Shown: positions 839 to 9,668 of the stretch, piece by piece
How the letters are laid out: every line of letters starts with the position of its first letter
How positions within the stretch are numbered: the first letter of the stretch is position 1
Assembly: GCA_017412605.1 (NCBI GenBank)
Contig: JAFPWY010000009.1
Coordinates: 186,001-250,000, forward strand
DNA from: Fibrobacter sp.
Lineage (GTDB): Bacteria > Fibrobacterota > Fibrobacteria > Fibrobacterales > Fibrobacteraceae
Reading direction: 5' to 3'
Length of the DNA: 64,000 nucleotides
The notes under the pieces: generated by a model
The model's input: only the letters and a program-made list of their open reading frames with translations
Told to the model about the DNA's origin: nothing
Databases searched by the model: none
Program-made: the position numbers and the translations under genes

Positions 839-848
839 TGTATCATAT

Positions 849-892
849 AAAGAGGCTAGGGTTGTGCCCTAGCCTCTTTGTTGTTGTTGTTC
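849..892 (+). terminator. Rho-independent terminator of ilvBN
   Basis: A perfect 13-bp stem (849-861 with 867-879) with a 5-base loop, followed by a T-rich run of GTT repeats. It separates the ilv operon from the lipoprotein/radical SAM operon. Confidence 0.85.
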
Positions 893-975: not shown

Positions 976-1677
976 ATGAAAATCGAAAAAAGAAAGGTTA
1001 AAGATAGCGCAATAGTTTCTCTCGCCAAAAGGAGCGCCATCGCCACCGTTCTCGGTATGGCGGCAGCATTCTCGCTAAGCGCCTGCGACGACAGCGCATC
1101 GGCATCCGACGACAACTCGAACCAGACAACCGGCCCGGAATCCAGCGACGCTACCGCCCCTACAAGCAGCACCGACGAGGCAACACCCGCAAGCAGCGAA
1201 AGTGTCTCCGATTCTTCGAACAAAGAACAAACGCCAGCCAGTTCAAGCGAGGAACAAGCGTCCGAGGCATCCAGCCAGCAGCAATCACAAGCAAGCAGTT
1301 CCAGCCAAGTGGTCGTCGACATTCCCTTGAGCCACGAGCCCATCAGCAGCTCGGTCATGGAAGCGCTTTCGGCTGCCGCAGAAGCAAGCAGTTCCTCCGC
1401 AGCCCCTACCCCAGCCAGCGCAGCAGACACGACAACAAGTTCCTCGGCCGACACAGCCAGTTCCGCAGCCAATCCGGCATCCTCGAGCGAAACTGTCGAG
1501 CCAGCAAGTTCGTCGTCCAGTGAGCCCTCCATCCGGGAAATCCAGGACGCTTGTCAAGGCCAACCAGGAGGCACTTCCGTAGACATTGGCGGCCAGGTGT
1601 ACCTCTGTCCCGATACCGGTGGCGGAATGATGTTCAGCATGATTTCGACTTTCGAAAGAACGGATGCGGAAGTTTAA
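976..1677 (+). CDS. Ser-rich lipoprotein with C-terminal TFER tail, putative radical SAM substrate 1
   Basis: A 233-residue predicted lipoprotein, first of four paralogues. The start at 976 gives the shared N-terminus MKIEKRKVKDS; a longer upstream reading frame lacks homology with the siblings. The signal peptide is about residues 1-36 with lipobox SLSAC, Cys at about 37. A low-complexity Ser/Ala/Thr/Glu spacer follows, interrupted by the conserved block IPLSHEPISSSVMEALSAAAE (about 114-134). The C-terminal domain has two Cys (DACQG and YLCPD) and ends SMISTFERTDAEV. The same tail in all four copies and the overlapping radical SAM/SPASM gene suggest this is a modified precursor exported to the outer membrane. 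Function is otherwise unknown. Confidence 0.85.
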   Translation: MKIEKRKVKDSAIVSLAKRSAIATVLGMAAAFSLSACDDSASASDDNSNQTTGPESSDATAPTSSTDEATPASSESVSDSSNKEQTPASSSEEQASEASSQQQSQASSSSQVVVDIPLSHEPISSSVMEALSAAAEASSSSAAPTPASAADTTTSSSADTASSAANPASSSETVEPASSSSSEPSIREIQDACQGQPGGTSVDIGGQVYLCPDTGGGMMFSMISTFERTDAEV

Positions 1678-1693
1678 TTTTGGGGAATAAAAA

Positions 1694-2416
1694 ATGAAAA
1701 TCGAAAAAAAGAAAGTCAAGGACAGCACAATCGTTTCGTTCGCCAAAAAGAGCGCCATCGCCACCGTTCTCGGTATGGCGGCAGCATTCTCGCTAAGCGC
1801 CTGCGACGACAGCGCATCGGCATCCGACGACAACTCGAACCAGACAACCGGCCCGGAATCCAGCGACGCCACAGTTCCCACCAGCAGCATCGACGAGGCA
1901 ACACCATCAAGCAGTGAAAGCGCCTCCGATGCAACGAGCCAAGAACAAACGCAAGCCAGTTCGAGCCAGGAGCAAGCGTCCGAGACATCCAGCCAGCAGC
2001 AATCTCAAGCAAGCAGCTCCAGCAAGGTTGTTGACATTCCCCTGAGCCACGAATCGATTAGCAGCTCGGTCATGGAAGCGCTATCGGCAGCCGCAGAGGC
2101 AAACAGTTCCTCCGCAGCCCCTACCCCAGCTAGCACAGCCAACTCGACAACAAGTTCCGAATCCGGCCCCACGAGTTCGGAGGCAACCCCGGAGTCTTCA
2201 AGCGAAGCCGTACAACCGGAATCCTCGAGCGAATCCGTCAATCCAGCAAGTTCGTCCAGCCAACCCTCCATCTGGGACATCTACGACGCGTGCGACGGGC
2301 TTCCTAGAGGCTCTTCCGTAGACATTGGCGGCAATGTGTACCTCTGCCCCGATGGCATCGGCGGAGCGATGGGCAGCATGGTCACCACCTTCGAACGCGA
2401 CGACATCGAGACCTAG
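1694..2416 (+). CDS. Ser-rich lipoprotein with C-terminal TFER tail, putative radical SAM substrate 2
   Basis: A 240-residue paralogue of the preceding gene, starting 16 bases after its stop. Residues about 1-60 are almost identical to copy 1: bases 1751-1869 match 1033-1151 exactly, which points to recent duplication or gene conversion. It has signal peptide and lipobox SLSAC, a Ser-rich spacer, the central IPLSHESISSSVMEALSAAAE block, a two-Cys C-terminal segment (DACDG, YLCPD) and the tail SMVTTFERDDIET. The spacer of the later half diverges freely, so the selected parts are the N-terminus, the central block and the tail. Confidence 0.85.
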   Translation: MKIEKKKVKDSTIVSFAKKSAIATVLGMAAAFSLSACDDSASASDDNSNQTTGPESSDATVPTSSIDEATPSSSESASDATSQEQTQASSSQEQASETSSQQQSQASSSSKVVDIPLSHESISSSVMEALSAAAEANSSSAAPTPASTANSTTSSESGPTSSEATPESSSEAVQPESSSESVNPASSSSQPSIWDIYDACDGLPRGSSVDIGGNVYLCPDGIGGAMGSMVTTFERDDIET

Positions 2417-2449
2417 AAATATTCCCGAAAAACTCCGGAAGGCTGAAAA

Positions 2450-3157
2450 ATGAAAATCGAAAAGAAAAAAATCACAGGAACAAAGCAGTTCTCCATCGCC
2501 GCCAAGAGCGCACTTGCCGCGTCACTCGGCATGATGGCAGCATTTACGCTGAACGCCTGTGACGACAGTTCATCGGCCAATTCCGATCCGACGCCAGCCT
2601 CATCTTCCGAAGAGTCCCAGCCCAGTTCAAGCAGCGTCAAGGCAGCCTCCGACTCTTCAGCCCCTGCAGAAACGAAGCAGGACAGCGCCGAGCAAACAGG
2701 CGCTCAGCAAAGCGGCTCGGAACCGGCAGAAACGACGCAGGACACCTCCGAACAGACAGAAACGCAACAATGCAGTTCCAGCCAGGTGGTCGACATTCCG
2801 CTAAGCCACGAGCCCATCAGCAGTTCGGTGATGGAGGCTCTATCGGCCGCCGCGGAATCCAGCAGTACCGCAGCCAAGCCCGACACTTCGGCGGCTGCAT
2901 CCGAATCTTCCAGCAGCATACCGCAACCCGCCAGTTCGTCTGTCGTGCCATCGTCAAGCAGCACACCAGCAAGTTCGTCCAGCTACAACGGCTGGGGCCC
3001 ATACACCCCCAACCCATGCCAAGGCCATGCACCGGGAGATTCCGTACTTTACGAGACCCAAATAATCATCTGCCCCACTTCTTCAACTTCCACATTCCTG
3101 CCAGGCTCGGGAATGAGCATGGTCATCACATTCGAGAAGACGGACATAGAAGTTTAA
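2450..3157 (+). CDS. Ser-rich lipoprotein with C-terminal TFEK tail, putative radical SAM substrate 3
   Basis: A 235-residue paralogue with start MKIEKKKITGTKQF. The lipobox is TLNAC at about residue 37. The spacer differs from copies 1 and 2 and carries a short direct duplication rich in Glu/Thr/Gln (AETKQDSAEQ and AETTQDTSEQ). The central IPLSHEPISSSVMEALSAAAE block is conserved. The C-terminal part has Cys in NPCQGH and IICPT and ends SMVITFEKTDIEV, so Lys replaces the Arg of the other three tails. Spacing to its neighbours (33 and 19 bases) supports one operon. Confidence 0.84.
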   Translation: MKIEKKKITGTKQFSIAAKSALAASLGMMAAFTLNACDDSSSANSDPTPASSSEESQPSSSSVKAASDSSAPAETKQDSAEQTGAQQSGSEPAETTQDTSEQTETQQCSSSQVVDIPLSHEPISSSVMEALSAAAESSSTAAKPDTSAAASESSSSIPQPASSSVVPSSSSTPASSSSYNGWGPYTPNPCQGHAPGDSVLYETQIIICPTSSTSTFLPGSGMSMVITFEKTDIEV

Positions 3158-3176
3158 AAGACCGCAGGAAAAGAAA

Positions 3177-3857
3177 ATGAAAATCGAAAAGAAAAAAATC
3201 TCAGGAATCAAATCCATTTCATTGGCGGCCAGGAGCGCCATCGCAGCGTCACTCGGCATGGCAGGAGCCTTGACGCTGAGCGCCTGCGACGACAGTACCT
3301 CGGCCAATTCCGACCCGGCACCGAAATCATCTTCCGAAGATCCCCAGCCAACTTCGGTCAACAACGAGACCGAAGGCGATTCGGCCACCGAATCTTCGAG
3401 CACTGCGCAAAAGGAACAGAGCAGTTCCAGCAGCGGCGTCGAAATTCCCCTGAGCCACACACCCATCAGCAGCGAGGTCATGGAAGCCCTTTCTTCCATT
3501 GCAGAAGCGAGCAGTTCTTCCGCAGGCCCCGCAAGCGCTGCCGGCCCGGACAGTACCACCACCGACCCTGAAACCACGTCCGCAGCAGATCCTGCAAGCG
3601 CAACCTCCGCGGCTGATTCCACAAGCGACGCCGCCCAGCCATCCTGTTCCGCCGACGCTCCGGCAAGTTCCGATGGTGGGCCAGCATCCTCTAGCGATCC
3701 GGCGTCCAGTTCCTCGCACAATCCATGGGGCAGTTCAAACGACTGGGGAACAACGCCCCAGACAGGCTCCTCTTTCCACATCTGCGACGACATCATCAAT
3801 TGTAGCGGGGGCGCAAGCATGGTCACCACCTTCGAGCGTGACGACATCGAGGCATGA
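3177..3857 (+). CDS. Ser-rich lipoprotein with C-terminal TFER tail, putative radical SAM substrate 4
   Basis: A 226-residue paralogue, last of the four. It has the MKIEKKKISGIK N-terminus, lipobox TLSAC, Ser/Ala/Asp-rich spacer and a slightly diverged central block (IPLSHTPISSEVMEALSSIAE). Its Cys-containing C-terminal segment is shortened (HICDDIINCSG) but the tail SMVTTFERDDIEA is intact. The stop overlaps the start of the radical SAM gene as ATGA, so translation of the two is probably coupled. That overlap is the best local evidence that these lipoproteins and the enzyme act together. Confidence 0.85.
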   Translation: MKIEKKKISGIKSISLAARSAIAASLGMAGALTLSACDDSTSANSDPAPKSSSEDPQPTSVNNETEGDSATESSSTAQKEQSSSSSGVEIPLSHTPISSEVMEALSSIAEASSSSAGPASAAGPDSTTTDPETTSAADPASATSAADSTSDAAQPSCSADAPASSDGGPASSSDPASSSSHNPWGSSNDWGTTPQTGSSFHICDDIINCSGGASMVTTFERDDIEA

Positions 3858-4945
3858 ACCTAATCCTCTGCCTTACAGAGCAGTGCAACCTGCGCTGCAC
3901 CTACTGCTATTACAAAGACACGCAGGCCGCCCGGCATGCGGTCATGGACAATGCGACCCTTGAGCAGGCCATCCGCGTCGGCCTAGAGCGCACGCACTCC
4001 TTCGGGCAAAACCTCCTGATAGTCTCTTTTTTTGGTGGGGAGCCGCTCCTGCGCAGAGACGCCATCTACCACGCCGTAGGGTTTGCCAAAGCTTTTGTCG
4101 CCGAAGCCATCGACAAGGGAACCGTCGGCAAGGATTTCCATCTGCAATTCACGATAAATACGAACGGCACCCTGTTCGACGATGAATTCTTCGACTTATG
4201 CGAAAGGGAGAAATTCACCATCTTCCTCTCGCTCGACGGACCCGGGCACCACCAGGACATCGCGCGCCGCACGGTCAACGACACCGGCAGTTTCAAGGCC
4301 ATCGAAAAAAACATCCCGCGATTCGTGGAGCTCAAGGCGACCGCCCTCAGCACCATCACGCGGGCGCACATCGATACCGTCGCCGAGAGCATCAAGTGGC
4401 TGCATTCGCAGGGATTCCGGAGCATGACGACCAGCGTGGATTTCGACGGGAAGTGGACCGGCGAAGACTTCGAGAGACTCGCCCGGCAATACCGCGAAAT
4501 GGCCCGGTACTGGAGCGAATGTCGCAAGAACGGAGACCGATTCTACCTCGGCACAATTCAAGACAAAGTAAAGCTATTGCTTTCTGGGAAAAGATACAGG
4601 AACTACTCCTGCCATGTTTACAGCGGCAACCTCGGCATCGCGACCAACGGGAACATATACCCCTGCTCACGCTTTATCACCTCCAGGGAAAACGCTCCCT
4701 ACAAACAGGGCAACGTCTTTACCGGGTTCGACGAAATTGCCTGCGCCGAACTGCACGCCTTCCTAGAACGCGACAAGCAGGAATGCGAAGGCTGCGACAT
4801 CCGCCACCGCTGCAGCATGCACGAATGCTCCTGCACCTCGTTCTATACTACCGGACATATTGATGGAGTCTCGGCGGAAGTCTGCACGCACGAACGCATG
4901 GTCGCCGAAATCTGCGACAACATGATAAACAAGGCCCTAGCCTGA
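3854..4945 (+). CDS. Radical SAM/SPASM peptide maturase-like enzyme
   Basis: A 363-residue cytoplasmic radical SAM enzyme. The [4Fe-4S] motif CNLRCTYC gives Cys11, Cys15 and Cys18, right at the N-terminus, followed by FFGGEPLL and the TNGT strand of the half barrel. The C-terminal SPASM-type domain has Cys253, GNIYPC (Cys271), Cys297, then CEGCDIRHRCSMHEC (Cys311, 314, 320, 325) and a last Cys344, enough for two auxiliary clusters. This layout is typical of enzymes that crosslink or epimerise ribosomal peptides. Its ATG overlaps the stop of the fourth lipoprotein gene, so those lipoproteins are the likely substrates. I recall a family called FibroRumin maturase in Fibrobacter and Ruminococcus; membership needs an HMM search. 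No dedicated protease or exporter lies next to it. Confidence 0.9.
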   Translation: MNLILCLTEQCNLRCTYCYYKDTQAARHAVMDNATLEQAIRVGLERTHSFGQNLLIVSFFGGEPLLRRDAIYHAVGFAKAFVAEAIDKGTVGKDFHLQFTINTNGTLFDDEFFDLCEREKFTIFLSLDGPGHHQDIARRTVNDTGSFKAIEKNIPRFVELKATALSTITRAHIDTVAESIKWLHSQGFRSMTTSVDFDGKWTGEDFERLARQYREMARYWSECRKNGDRFYLGTIQDKVKLLLSGKRYRNYSCHVYSGNLGIATNGNIYPCSRFITSRENAPYKQGNVFTGFDEIACAELHAFLERDKQECEGCDIRHRCSMHECSCTSFYTTGHIDGVSAEVCTHERMVAEICDNMINKALA

Positions 4946-4951
4946 AAACAG

Positions 4952-4981
4952 CAAGGGCCCGGCATTTCTGCCAGGCCCTTG
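4952..4981. terminator. Hairpin between radical SAM gene and tRNA-Arg, probably bidirectional
   Basis: Stem CAAGGGCC (4952-4959) pairs with GGCCCTTG (4974-4981), with a nested GGCA/TGCC stem. It lies between convergent transcription units. On the minus strand it is followed by CTGTTTTC, on the plus strand by no good T-run. Confidence 0.6.
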
Positions 4982-4990
4982 AGTCAAAAA

Positions 4991-5063
4991 TACCCGGATC
5001 GCGATTCGAACGCGAGTTTGATCCTTAGGAGGGACCCGTTCTATCCAACTGAACTATCCAGGC
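4991..5063 (-). tRNA. tRNA-Arg (anticodon CCT)
   Basis: A 73-base cloverleaf on the minus strand. The acceptor stem GCCTGGA pairs with TCCGGGT (one G-U), D stem GTTC/GAAC, anticodon stem GGTCC/GGATC with loop CTCCTAA giving anticodon CCT, T arm TCGCG-TTCGAAT-CGCGA, discriminator A. CCA is not encoded. A TATATT box at 5081-5086 (minus strand) sits 17 bases before the 5' end and is a likely -10 element. Confidence 0.95.
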
Positions 5064-5110
5064 AATATAGTTGCTGCGCAAATATAGCAAAAATCAAGCA
5101 GGCCAAAATC

Positions 5111-6880: not shown

Positions 6881-8365
6881 TCACGGCCGGTCAAGGACTT
6901 GCATACGGGAAACAGCCTCCCGGAATTGCTCTGGAGGCGCCAGCAGCGACACCACCACCCAGCCGTCCTCGTCAAAGTCGAAGAAGAATCCCGGCTGCAC
7001 GAGCACGTGCTTTTCGCGGAGCAGGCGAAGCGTCAATTCCTCGTCGTCCTCCCCCAAGCGGACAACCGCATACCAGCCGCCCAGAACCTCGGGGCAGTAC
7101 TTGGAAGGGAATGACTCACGGAGTGTTTTCCAGTTGGCAAGCAGACGTTCCTTGACACGGGCCTCGTAAGCGGCCGAATTGGCAAGCAAGGGGCGAGCCA
7201 AAGCCTGGGCCGAGGCAGAAACGCTCAAATAGGCATCTTCCACAAACTCGAGGGCAGCCCGGATGGGCTCAAACTGCTCCTCGGGAGCGTAAAATGCCAT
7301 CCAGCCCAACTTGAGTTGTGGGGAACCGACCGTTTTGCTCAGGCCGTTCAACCAGAAAATCGGGCACTTAGGACCGTTGTCACACGAGTTTTCCCTCGCA
7401 GAATTGTCATTGCGAGAGTGCACAGCACTCGAAGCAATCTCCTGCACAGCATTTGAAAGAGATTGCTTCGTCGCTTCGTTCCTCGCAATGACATTTTTAT
7501 TAAAAACATACTGCCAGGTTCGCGAGACTTTGTCGGAGAAAGCATAATCACCGAAGACTTCGTCCACCACGAGAATCAAGTGGTTCTCTTCGCAGAAGCG
7601 GACAGCCTCGTTCCACTCCTCGCGCGAAATGCAGTGGCCCGTCGGGTTATGCGGCGAGACAAGCAACAGGATTTTCGCCTTTTCGGGAGCGGCAAGCAGG
7701 CTGTCGGAATCCAGGACAAAGCGGAAGGAAGATTCCTTAGATTGCTTCGACCTTCGGTCTCGCAATGACGTACAAGGCGAGTGCAGCGAACACGCCTGCG
7801 TGGACATTGCCGAGCCGCGATCGTCATGCGCTCGGCGCATTGACAAAGTTGAGGTGGTCTCCCTATTAGACAGGCTCGAGGTTCGAGGCTCGATGCTCGA
7901 TGTCTCGCGTTTTAGCTTTAGGAAGTATGGAAAACATTCCAGGTGTTCCAGCTGTGCGAGCGTATCGAGCAGCGGGTAGCCCGGCATCGGCGTCAGAATC
8001 ACATCGCCTGGGTCGCAGAACGCCTTGAACAAGACGGAATAAGCCTCGCTCGTACTCGCGGTAAGGATAATCTGACCCGCATCAAAATTGCCGCCACGTT
8101 CGCGATAATATTCCACCACCGCCTCGCGCGCAGACATCCAGCCCGCCGCATCCGGATTCCAACAACCGAAAGATTCGCGACCTTCATCCACAACCGCATC
8201 CAAGTCAATCGGCAAGCCAGCCTTCACCGGGCTACTCACCGTCATGTCGATAAACGGGAGTGTATTGGCACCGGCACATTCCGCAAGCACATTGGCCTTC
8301 GCACGTTCCAGTTCGGCAAAGAACGGAGACGGAGAAAGGTCTTTAGGCAAGCGGGAAGAGAGCAT
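6881..8365 (-). CDS. PLP-dependent aminotransferase (class I/II) with repeat-derived insertions
   Basis: A 494-residue fold-type I aminotransferase; relatives are about 400 residues. The core is recognisable: SSPVKAGLP near the N-terminus, TASTSEAYSVLFKAFCDPGD (PLP phosphate loop region), SPHNPTGHCISREEW, VVDEVFGDYAF (Asp for the pyridine nitrogen) and LSKTVGSPQLKLGW with the Schiff-base Lys. Two segments do not belong to the fold: about residues 153-211 and 292-321. Both are translations of dispersed palindromic repeats (7740-7770 and 7405-7493) that kept the frame. The start at 8365 overlaps the upstream stop by one base (TGATG), which is better than an alternative 12 codons upstream. Substrate is not evident; alanine/aspartate-type is a guess. 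Confidence 0.85.
   Translation of the reverse strand: MLSSRLPKDLSPSPFFAELERAKANVLAECAGANTLPFIDMTVSSPVKAGLPIDLDAVVDEGRESFGCWNPDAAGWMSAREAVVEYYRERGGNFDAGQIILTASTSEAYSVLFKAFCDPGDVILTPMPGYPLLDTLAQLEHLECFPYFLKLKRETSSIEPRTSSLSNRETTSTLSMRRAHDDRGSAMSTQACSLHSPCTSLRDRRSKQSKESSFRFVLDSDSLLAAPEKAKILLLVSPHNPTGHCISREEWNEAVRFCEENHLILVVDEVFGDYAFSDKVSRTWQYVFNKNVIARNEATKQSLSNAVQEIASSAVHSRNDNSARENSCDNGPKCPIFWLNGLSKTVGSPQLKLGWMAFYAPEEQFEPIRAALEFVEDAYLSVSASAQALARPLLANSAAYEARVKERLLANWKTLRESFPSKYCPEVLGGWYAVVRLGEDDEELTLRLLREKHVLVQPGFFFDFDEDGWVVVSLLAPPEQFREAVSRMQVLDRP
7405..7493. repeat. Palindromic repeat element inside the aminotransferase gene
   Basis: Perfect 12-base terminal inverted repeats TGTCATTGCGAG (7405-7416) and CTCGCAATGACA (7482-7493), with nested GAAGCAATCTC (7431-7441) and GAGATTGCTTC (7459-7469). 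On the coding strand it reads through as residues containing ARNEATKQS. Related copies lie at 7740, 12839 and 26047. Confidence 0.85.
7740..7770. repeat. Short copy of the GATTGCTTCG...CGCAATGAC repeat
   Basis: GATTGCTTCG, a small ACCTTCGGT palindrome, then CTCGCAATGACG. It is part of a longer foreign stretch in the aminotransferase reading frame that also holds the heptad-like string GGCTCGAGGTTCGAGGCTCG near 7870. Confidence 0.8.
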
Positions 8366-9627
8366 CAATCCTCGTCCTTGATACAACGAACTGAGAACCA
8401 ATTATACTTAGAATAATCATCAGTTGTACCACAAATTTCATTGGTAATTATCCAATACAGAGATCGGCTAATAGAATATTCCGTTGACGTCCAAAAAAGA
8501 ACTTTTGTGCCAACAAAACTAAAATTATTGGTAAAGTAACCACCAATAGGGAGAGCCGAAAAACCATAGGAATCCGTTGCATTGGGAAATTCTTCAAACC
8601 CTTTCGCAAGCATTGCATTTTGAGATTTTCCCATTGCCGTAAAGAGATGCTGCCATTCTGTGCTCGACGGAATATGCCAACCTTCAGGGCAGATTCCTCT
8701 TGCAGGAATTTTTAATTTACAAGTAAAGTTGTAACCGCAATCTTTCGCATTTGTCGAAAAAACCGCAGGAGTGTCCACAGCGATCATCCAACTATAATAA
8801 CGGCCATATTTTTTACAACTATCTGCCGAGTTGCTTACACATTGTGATAATCCCACAATTCCCAAACTACTATCAGCGTAATTCAAGTTTTCTGCCATCC
8901 ACCATTGACTACCAATTTTGACAGTCTTATAGGTTTGACCATCTCGTTCATCAATCAGCGAGCCGTATTCGCAGTTATCTGCGGTATCCGTCTTGCAAGG
9001 TTTTGCTACAGGAATAGAACTAGAACTGAAGCGAAACTCGCTACTTGACATTGGGCTAATAAAAGTAAAATAGCCGCTTTCACTTGAAGAACTCAAAACA
9101 ATCGATTCATTACTCGAGCTTGACGCCATTGACGAACAAGATGCTTCAGTATCATCATAAGATTCCCTACCATTCGAAGCCGCGGCCTCATCAGCAGAGA
9201 TTGATTCGGTAGAATCCTTACTGCTACTGGATTCTTCCTGCAAGTCGTTCATATCGAGGCAGCGCTCCATAATGCGGTCAAAGAACTCATCGCGATCCAC
9301 ATCCGTATAGGTCGTATCGTCCTCGTCCATGTGGTAGGCATTCATGAACTCCTTGAATTCCACCGTAGATTCATCAATCCAGGAATATTCTTCTGAAATG
9401 TTCGATGTAGAATAAGAAAACTTCCACACATTGTCGGACTTTTTAAAACCGCAAACGGAACCAACCTTGCTACCGCCCTCTTGGCCACTGTCGCTCGACC
9501 CAACTACATTGTTTGAATCACTTGGATTCGACGAATCCTCGCCGCCACATGCGACAATCATGATAGCGAGTGCTAGTGCCAAGACGTAGGCAAAAAATTG
9601 CTTCAATTTTTTCGAATTTAATTCCAT
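8365..9627 (-). CDS. FISUMP-domain lipoprotein
   Basis: A 420-residue lipoprotein. The start at 9627 is preferred because GGAGG lies 12 bases upstream; an earlier ATG would abut it. The signal peptide ends with lipobox IVAC at about residue 27. A Ser/Glu-rich linker (about 125-200) leads to a C-terminal FISUMP domain (about 222-420): TVKIGSQWWMAENLNY, GRYYSWM, CPEGWHIPSSTEWQHL, YGFSALPIGGY, FWTSTEY and FSVRCIKD. This domain is found in many Fibrobacter surface proteins and resembles C-type-lectin/FGE-like folds; its ligand is unknown. The stop overlaps the aminotransferase start. Confidence 0.88.
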   Translation of the reverse strand: MELNSKKLKQFFAYVLALALAIMIVACGGEDSSNPSDSNNVVGSSDSGQEGGSKVGSVCGFKKSDNVWKFSYSTSNISEEYSWIDESTVEFKEFMNAYHMDEDDTTYTDVDRDEFFDRIMERCLDMNDLQEESSSSKDSTESISADEAAASNGRESYDDTEASCSSMASSSSNESIVLSSSSESGYFTFISPMSSSEFRFSSSSIPVAKPCKTDTADNCEYGSLIDERDGQTYKTVKIGSQWWMAENLNYADSSLGIVGLSQCVSNSADSCKKYGRYYSWMIAVDTPAVFSTNAKDCGYNFTCKLKIPARGICPEGWHIPSSTEWQHLFTAMGKSQNAMLAKGFEEFPNATDSYGFSALPIGGYFTNNFSFVGTKVLFWTSTEYSISRSLYWIITNEICGTTDDYSKYNWFSVRCIKDED

Positions 9628-9668
9628 ATCCACTTGCATCCTCCAAAATCAACCCACCACGGCAGGCA

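Follow-up and report, generated by a model that had tools for sequence, protein, structure and literature searches.

A radical SAM/SPASM enzyme encoded with tandem serine-rich lipoproteins in Fibrobacter: a probable lipoprotein-maturation module

Analysis of a 64,000-nucleotide stretch of Fibrobacter sp. DNA (contig JAFPWY010000009.1, positions 186,001 to 250,000; here called the window), part of a 3.5-Mb genome in 15 contigs, revealed an operon at window positions 976-4945 in which four tandem serine-rich lipoprotein genes run up to a gene for a radical S-adenosylmethionine (SAM)/SPASM enzyme. We consider it probable that this operon is a dedicated lipoprotein-maturation module, in which an N-terminal leader guides a cytoplasmic change in the C-terminal tail of the lipoproteins before they are exported by Sec and lipidated. 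An earlier note on this DNA had described four paralogs of 226 to 240 amino acids (aa) with MKIEK starts, lipoboxes and an IPLSH block, as well as a 363-aa enzyme with CNLRCTYC and SPASM motifs whose start overlaps the last paralog by ATGA, and all of this was confirmed from the open reading frames.

The module was compared across 111 genomes of the family Fibrobacteraceae, which yielded 47 homologous loci with 87 lipoproteins in the enzyme clade of the window (clade A; the letters A to E are labels given in this analysis). Tandem lipoproteins run up to the enzyme at all 47 loci, with 1, 2, 3, 4 and 5 copies at 21, 15, 6, 4 and 1 loci, respectively, some of these counts being limited because the contig or the fetched DNA ended. 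In the window, the enzyme start codon lies inside the stop of paralog 4 (gaggcATGAacc), and the identical 4-base overlap recurs at 42 of the 47 loci. The lipoproteins share a tail with the consensus SMVTT[FY]ExxD, in which Ser, Met and the second Thr are present in all 87 proteins, Val in 81, Thr or Ser at the fourth position in 84, Phe or Tyr in 85, and Glu and Asp in 86 each; the string SM[VI][ST]T occurs 83 times, against 0.1 expected from shuffled sequences. A profile of this tail matched 46 genomes, which are the same 46 that carry a clade A enzyme, and none of the 65 others. Every real match adjoins the enzyme gene, and one additional match, in genome G075 with E = 0.006, is partial and due to chance. 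The proposal of the earlier note that the enzyme belongs with the lipoproteins in a single conserved module, with the tail as its common feature, is thereby supported, and tails common in enzyme-less genomes, which it had set in advance as evidence against that proposal, were not found. Because of this strict co-occurrence and the recurring overlap, we conclude that enzyme and lipoproteins very probably represent a dedicated enzyme-substrate module.

Two simpler accounts of the tail were rejected. It is not a general lipoprotein feature, being found neither in the other Ser-rich lipoproteins of the same genome nor in genomes without the enzyme, and it is not kept merely as the ribosome-binding site of the enzyme gene, since the upstream paralogs, which do not overlap the enzyme, keep the same tail. 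The serine richness that the earlier note had emphasized is present but not specific to the four proteins, as Ser-rich lipoproteins are frequent across this genome.

Paralogs 2 to 4 show 47 to 78% identity to paralog 1. All four carry the lipobox L(S/N)AC37, whose cysteine is invariant in 36 aligned members, so that with signal peptide and lipobox Cys they are classed by sequence as lipoproteins with predicted lipidation. In the AlphaFold2 model of paralog 2, most of the protein is disordered, the exceptions being the signal helix, one short helix within the central block, and a mini-domain at about residues 190 to 220, which holds a Cys pair and has a predicted local distance difference test score (pLDDT) of about 90. 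The tail following this mini-domain is disordered (pLDDT about 57) and is thus modeled as flexible.

The enzyme passes the Pfam cut-offs for Radical_SAM (56.8 bits, cut-off 29.5) and SPASM (24.6 bits, cut-off 21.5) and contains the motifs CNLRCTYC and CEGCDIRHRCSMHEC, which assign it to the radical SAM/SPASM superfamily. Ten cysteines (C11, C15, C18, C253, C271, C311, C314, C320, C325 and C344) are invariant in 30 diverse homologs, and the iron-sulfur ligand cysteines are constant through all five enzyme clades. The structure model (pLDDT 91.5) is nearest to CteB, the best match, and to anSME and ChlB, all of which are SPASM enzymes that modify peptides or proteins; it opens directly at the radical SAM barrel, and no separate N-terminal leader-binding domain is therefore seen in it. 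A search against hidden Markov models of maturase families, as suggested in the earlier note, gave scores under the cut-offs of all the maturase families named here. For all four enzymes tested, the best NCBIfam match was the PapB family (180 to 205 bits), to which the window enzyme, with 204.7 bits against a cut-off of 340 (NF047865), does not belong.

At least one copy of the enzyme family is present in 64 of the 111 genomes, and the family occurs in 4 of 41 genera of the phylum, all from one bacterial family. Beyond Fibrobacterota, the matches listed from a scan of 84,980 species genomes reach 32% identity (Corallococcus) and lower. A tree of 109 enzymes sets clade A apart from clades B to E with a support of 100. 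The genome of the window itself encodes three further paralogs (52, 49 and 46% identity), of which the copy on contig C12 falls into clade C and those on C6 and C1 into clade D. These comparisons indicate an unnamed enzyme family that appears confined to one bacterial family, with PapB as a distant nearest relative. The Corallococcus enzyme (L210:3441-4915), which aligns over part of its length, overlaps a gene for a 98-aa Cys-rich peptide ending CPTDTDICILCDSPRDLCKLCDTLDCGPTYRDVD and looks like part of a separate peptide-maturase pair. At another locus (L143:4848-5933), a clade C enzyme gene with a disrupted start and in-frame stops adjoins an intact small lipoprotein gene and is apparently a pseudogene.

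The position of the conserved residues bears on which chemistry could take place. The earlier note had placed the core of the modification at Phe-Glu-Arg/Lys, within a tail written as SMxxTFE(R/K)xDxE, and had suggested a three-residue cyclophane. This tail is correct for the window locus, and the aromatic residue and Glu hold nearly throughout clade A, but FE(R/K) does not hold family-wide, which weakens Phe-Glu-Arg/Lys as the core: the residue following Glu is Arg in 41, Gln in 15, Met in 11, Lys in 7, Ser in 5, Leu in 3, Thr in 2 and Pro in 2 of the 87 proteins, with one unlisted case. A cyclophane is possible at F-E-x, with the aromatic ring of T-[FY]-E-x joined to the beta-carbon of the second residue after it, since Phe and Tyr are interchangeable and the position after Glu is free, and cyclophane-forming enzymes often tolerate a free residue at such a position. 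On the other hand, Leu replaces the aromatic residue in the last lipoprotein of loci L059 and L063, Pro is allowed at the third position, clade B lipoproteins keep SM without an aromatic residue at that place, and the SMVTT-type tail is not present in clades C and D. Moreover, the curated cyclophane-maturase models scored far under their cut-offs with the window enzyme (YhhB, 75.5 of 445 bits; GrrM, 70.3 of 310; AmcB, 58.1 of 425; FxsB, 52.7 of 370; XyeB, 50.2 of 450). We therefore regard a cyclophane as unlikely and do not favor it for the family as a whole.

The relation to PapB and the structural match to CteB would fit a thioether of the ranthipeptide type, formed between the one Cys that all aligned tails have ahead of SM and a residue in or near the tail. 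In a short peptide, PapB joins Cys to Asp or Glu within CX3D motifs (PMC9413430), whereas no CX3D/E motif is conserved in the aligned clade A tails, the residue at +4 from the Cys being variable. Beyond the lipobox, an even number of cysteines is found in 79 of 87 clade A proteins (five of the eight exceptions form one orthologous group), in 5 of 5 clade B proteins and in 20 of 22 clade C proteins, which makes disulfides formed after export likelier than thioethers, and Cys is entirely missing after the lipobox from 15 of the 22 clade C partners. Together with the score below the PapB cut-off, this renders a thioether quite improbable.

A third candidate target is the central block or its Ser residues, for instance by conversion of Ser to formylglycine as performed by anaerobic sulfatase maturases (anSME). 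The block, [VI]DIP[LKQ]S[HYQ]E..SS..EALSS, is kept in most clade A lipoproteins, and anSME is among the closest structures. However, it is more weakly conserved than the tail, with no invariant residue across 36 diverse members, and the anSME model gave 95 bits against a cut-off of 349, so we give this candidate very little credence.

The sister clades were examined for the features of their partner proteins. The C-termini of clade B lipoproteins read SM[PA][TS]..GHI..P[LM] or similar. The 22 clade C lipoproteins contain 108 [AGSP]G[VILMDE][PIVA] motifs (12 expected from shuffles), and clade E, from other genera, again has lipoprotein partners, with TAGDPV or PLAGG motifs. No lipoprotein was found beside the clade D enzymes at the 33 loci inspected; at each of them, a Lys/Ala-rich protein of 69 to 183 aa starts 11 to 40 bases downstream of the enzyme, and G[ILMV]P-type motifs are frequent in these proteins (14 versus 2.4 expected), which are possible cytosolic substrates. 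Examples of such proteins are encoded at L043:6240-6464, at L044:7778-8083 and at 31 more loci, with motifs such as GGMPAEKALF, AGIPV and PIGGKTPV.

Clades A, B, C and E have in common an element ahead of the lipobox, M.I.K.KV...(W)...K..LAA.LG, in which I3, G27 and C37 are invariant across clades and K5 nearly so. A profile of this leader gave only five matches in the genome of the window, namely the four window lipoproteins and the clade C partner. In other genomes, unlinked proteins with an MKIEKKKV-type leader were found (L239 to L258), and some that lack the lipobox Cys still hold a motif of the PLGGIV or ALAGIM type. The motif [AGS]G[IVMD][VIPLM] is present in 16 of 19 unlinked leader proteins (18 motifs versus 1.1 expected) and absent from 16 leader-less Ser-rich lipoproteins of the genome of the window (0 versus 2.5 expected); the G motif had been recognized in clades C and D prior to the retrieval of the unlinked proteins, and its stricter form was set later. 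The combination of leader and G motif in unlinked proteins suggests that the enzyme family reaches substrates in trans. A broader reading, which we hold only tentatively, is that one radical SAM family specific to Fibrobacteraceae introduces a single new modification, independent of Cys, into a short core of the type G/S-aliphatic-[VIP] in unrelated carriers (surface lipoproteins in tandem, secreted proteins and Lys-rich proteins of the cytosol), with unlinked substrates reached through the signal-peptide leader.

For the maturation module itself, we propose that the enzyme would bind the MKIEKKKV leader, an unusually conserved n-region of a lipoprotein signal peptide, in the cytoplasm before export. 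A 5'-deoxyadenosyl radical would then take a hydrogen, giving an oxidative change within the SMVTT(F/Y)E tail, most likely of net -2 Da, after which the modified protein would pass through Sec, be lipidated at Cys37 and display its tail on a Ser-rich stalk. The sister enzymes would act in an equivalent way on the repeats of [AGS]-G-[IVMD]-[VIP], a motif to which Ser-Met-Val of the tail would correspond in the window lipoproteins.

Several points weigh against this scheme. The modification is predicted from sequence comparison and models, the co-occurrence of adjoining genes partly reflects shared inheritance, and the conservation of the tail might serve docking or sorting instead of marking a reaction site. 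The four window lipoproteins hold essentially no G motifs of the kind that mark the partners in other clades, for which reason the equivalence with Ser-Met-Val is offered as a suggestion. The leader profile also matches unlinked proteins, one of them encoded by G024, an 84% complete genome where the enzyme was not detected. The lipoproteins could also be left unmodified, with the enzyme acting on another target and the operon being merely co-regulated; long Ser-rich lipoproteins are indeed unusual precursors. Against this, enzyme and lipoproteins are strictly coupled and co-occur, and sister enzymes are paired with small proteins that bear the leader or a motif; we judge it very unlikely.

If the broader reading is true, the shared core in unrelated carriers would amount to a protein-scale post-translational code and not to a peptide natural product. 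The chemistry of the family can be tested directly, since its substrates are clear and candidates are at hand for both the leader that is recognized and the sites that are modified. Full-length substrates with signal peptides are rare for such enzymes, and the system therefore bears on the order of modification and Sec export. The members of the genus Fibrobacter degrade cellulose in the rumen, where tail modification of surface lipoproteins could play a part in adhesion or competition.

Known systems were also considered. FibroRumin, a radical SAM maturase of peptides whose name derives from Fibrobacter and Ruminococcus, had been named in the earlier note as a possible identity, but the enzyme scored 39.1 bits where the TIGR04136 cut-off is 400, and no protein of the genome exceeded 60 bits; that system is not known to have a lipoprotein partner. 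Membership in TIGR04133 (rSAM_w_lipo) was rejected as well (19.9 bits, cut-off 425), and the four window lipoproteins gave no match up to E = 1 to the lipoprotein model TIGR04134. TIGR04133 is found above cut-off in 76 of the 111 genomes, and the genome of the window also has it: contig C12:62000-78000 (L232) carries two true TIGR04133 enzymes and about a dozen Ser-rich lipoproteins, three of which showed no match to TIGR04134 or any other NCBIfam model. Both systems place a radical SAM/SPASM enzyme in an array of Ser-rich lipoproteins, but in those of the TIGR04133 array, which start with M.YKHWKK or MNIHKHL, neither the SM tail nor the leader nor the G motif is present. Judged by their sequences, the two are separate systems, and since both exist in the same genome, that of the window represents another solution of this kind, distinct from the first.

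A precedent for precursors that bear signal peptides is given by the MNIO-modified bufferins, in which Sec signal peptides replace classical leaders and some precursors are lipoproteins or long (PMC12452194); these differ in their unrelated enzyme class (non-heme iron), Cys-based substrates and partner proteins. The cyclopropylglycine synthase TvgB is described as a SPASM enzyme acting on a short repeated TVGG motif (PMC9062424), a Gly-containing aliphatic repeat similar in style to that of the sister clades. Its motif is a different one, the sections of that report used here mention no signal-peptide precursor, and the comparison extends to the radical SAM/SPASM fold only.

The features of the locus are listed in Table 1. 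The operon is flanked by an upstream gene that we take to be ilvH-like from its sequence and by the tRNA-Arg gene downstream, and, in line with the earlier note, neither a protease nor an exporter gene adjoins it. The hairpin just 3' of the enzyme gene is likely the end of the operon.

Table 1. Features of the operon and its borders, in window coordinates
Feature	Position	Strand	Remarks
Terminator-like hairpin between ilvH-like gene and operon	847..881	+	Hairpin scan
Leader and signal peptide of paralog 1 (MKIEKRKV...LSAC)	976..1092	+	Same element opens paralogs 2-4
Lipoprotein paralog 1	976..1677	+	233 aa; tail SMISTFERTDAEV
Lipoprotein paralog 2	1694..2416	+	240 aa; tail SMVTTFERDDIET; AlphaFold2 model
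Lipoprotein paralog 3	2450..3157	+	235 aa; tail SMVITFEKTDIEV
Lipoprotein paralog 4	3177..3857	+	226 aa; tail SMVTTFERDDIEA; ATGA overlap with enzyme gene
Radical SAM/SPASM enzyme, presumed lipoprotein maturase	3854..4945	+	363 aa; Pfam, NCBIfam, structure model
13-pair hairpin just 3' of enzyme gene	4952..4981	.	Scan scored T-run on minus strand
tRNA-Arg (CCT), directly past operon	4990-5064	-	Downstream border of operon

A further Ser-rich lipoprotein, without an MKIEK-type leader or SM tail, is encoded on the minus strand at 8365-9639; its C-terminal domain presumably resembles the Fibrobacter succinogenes major paralogous domain.

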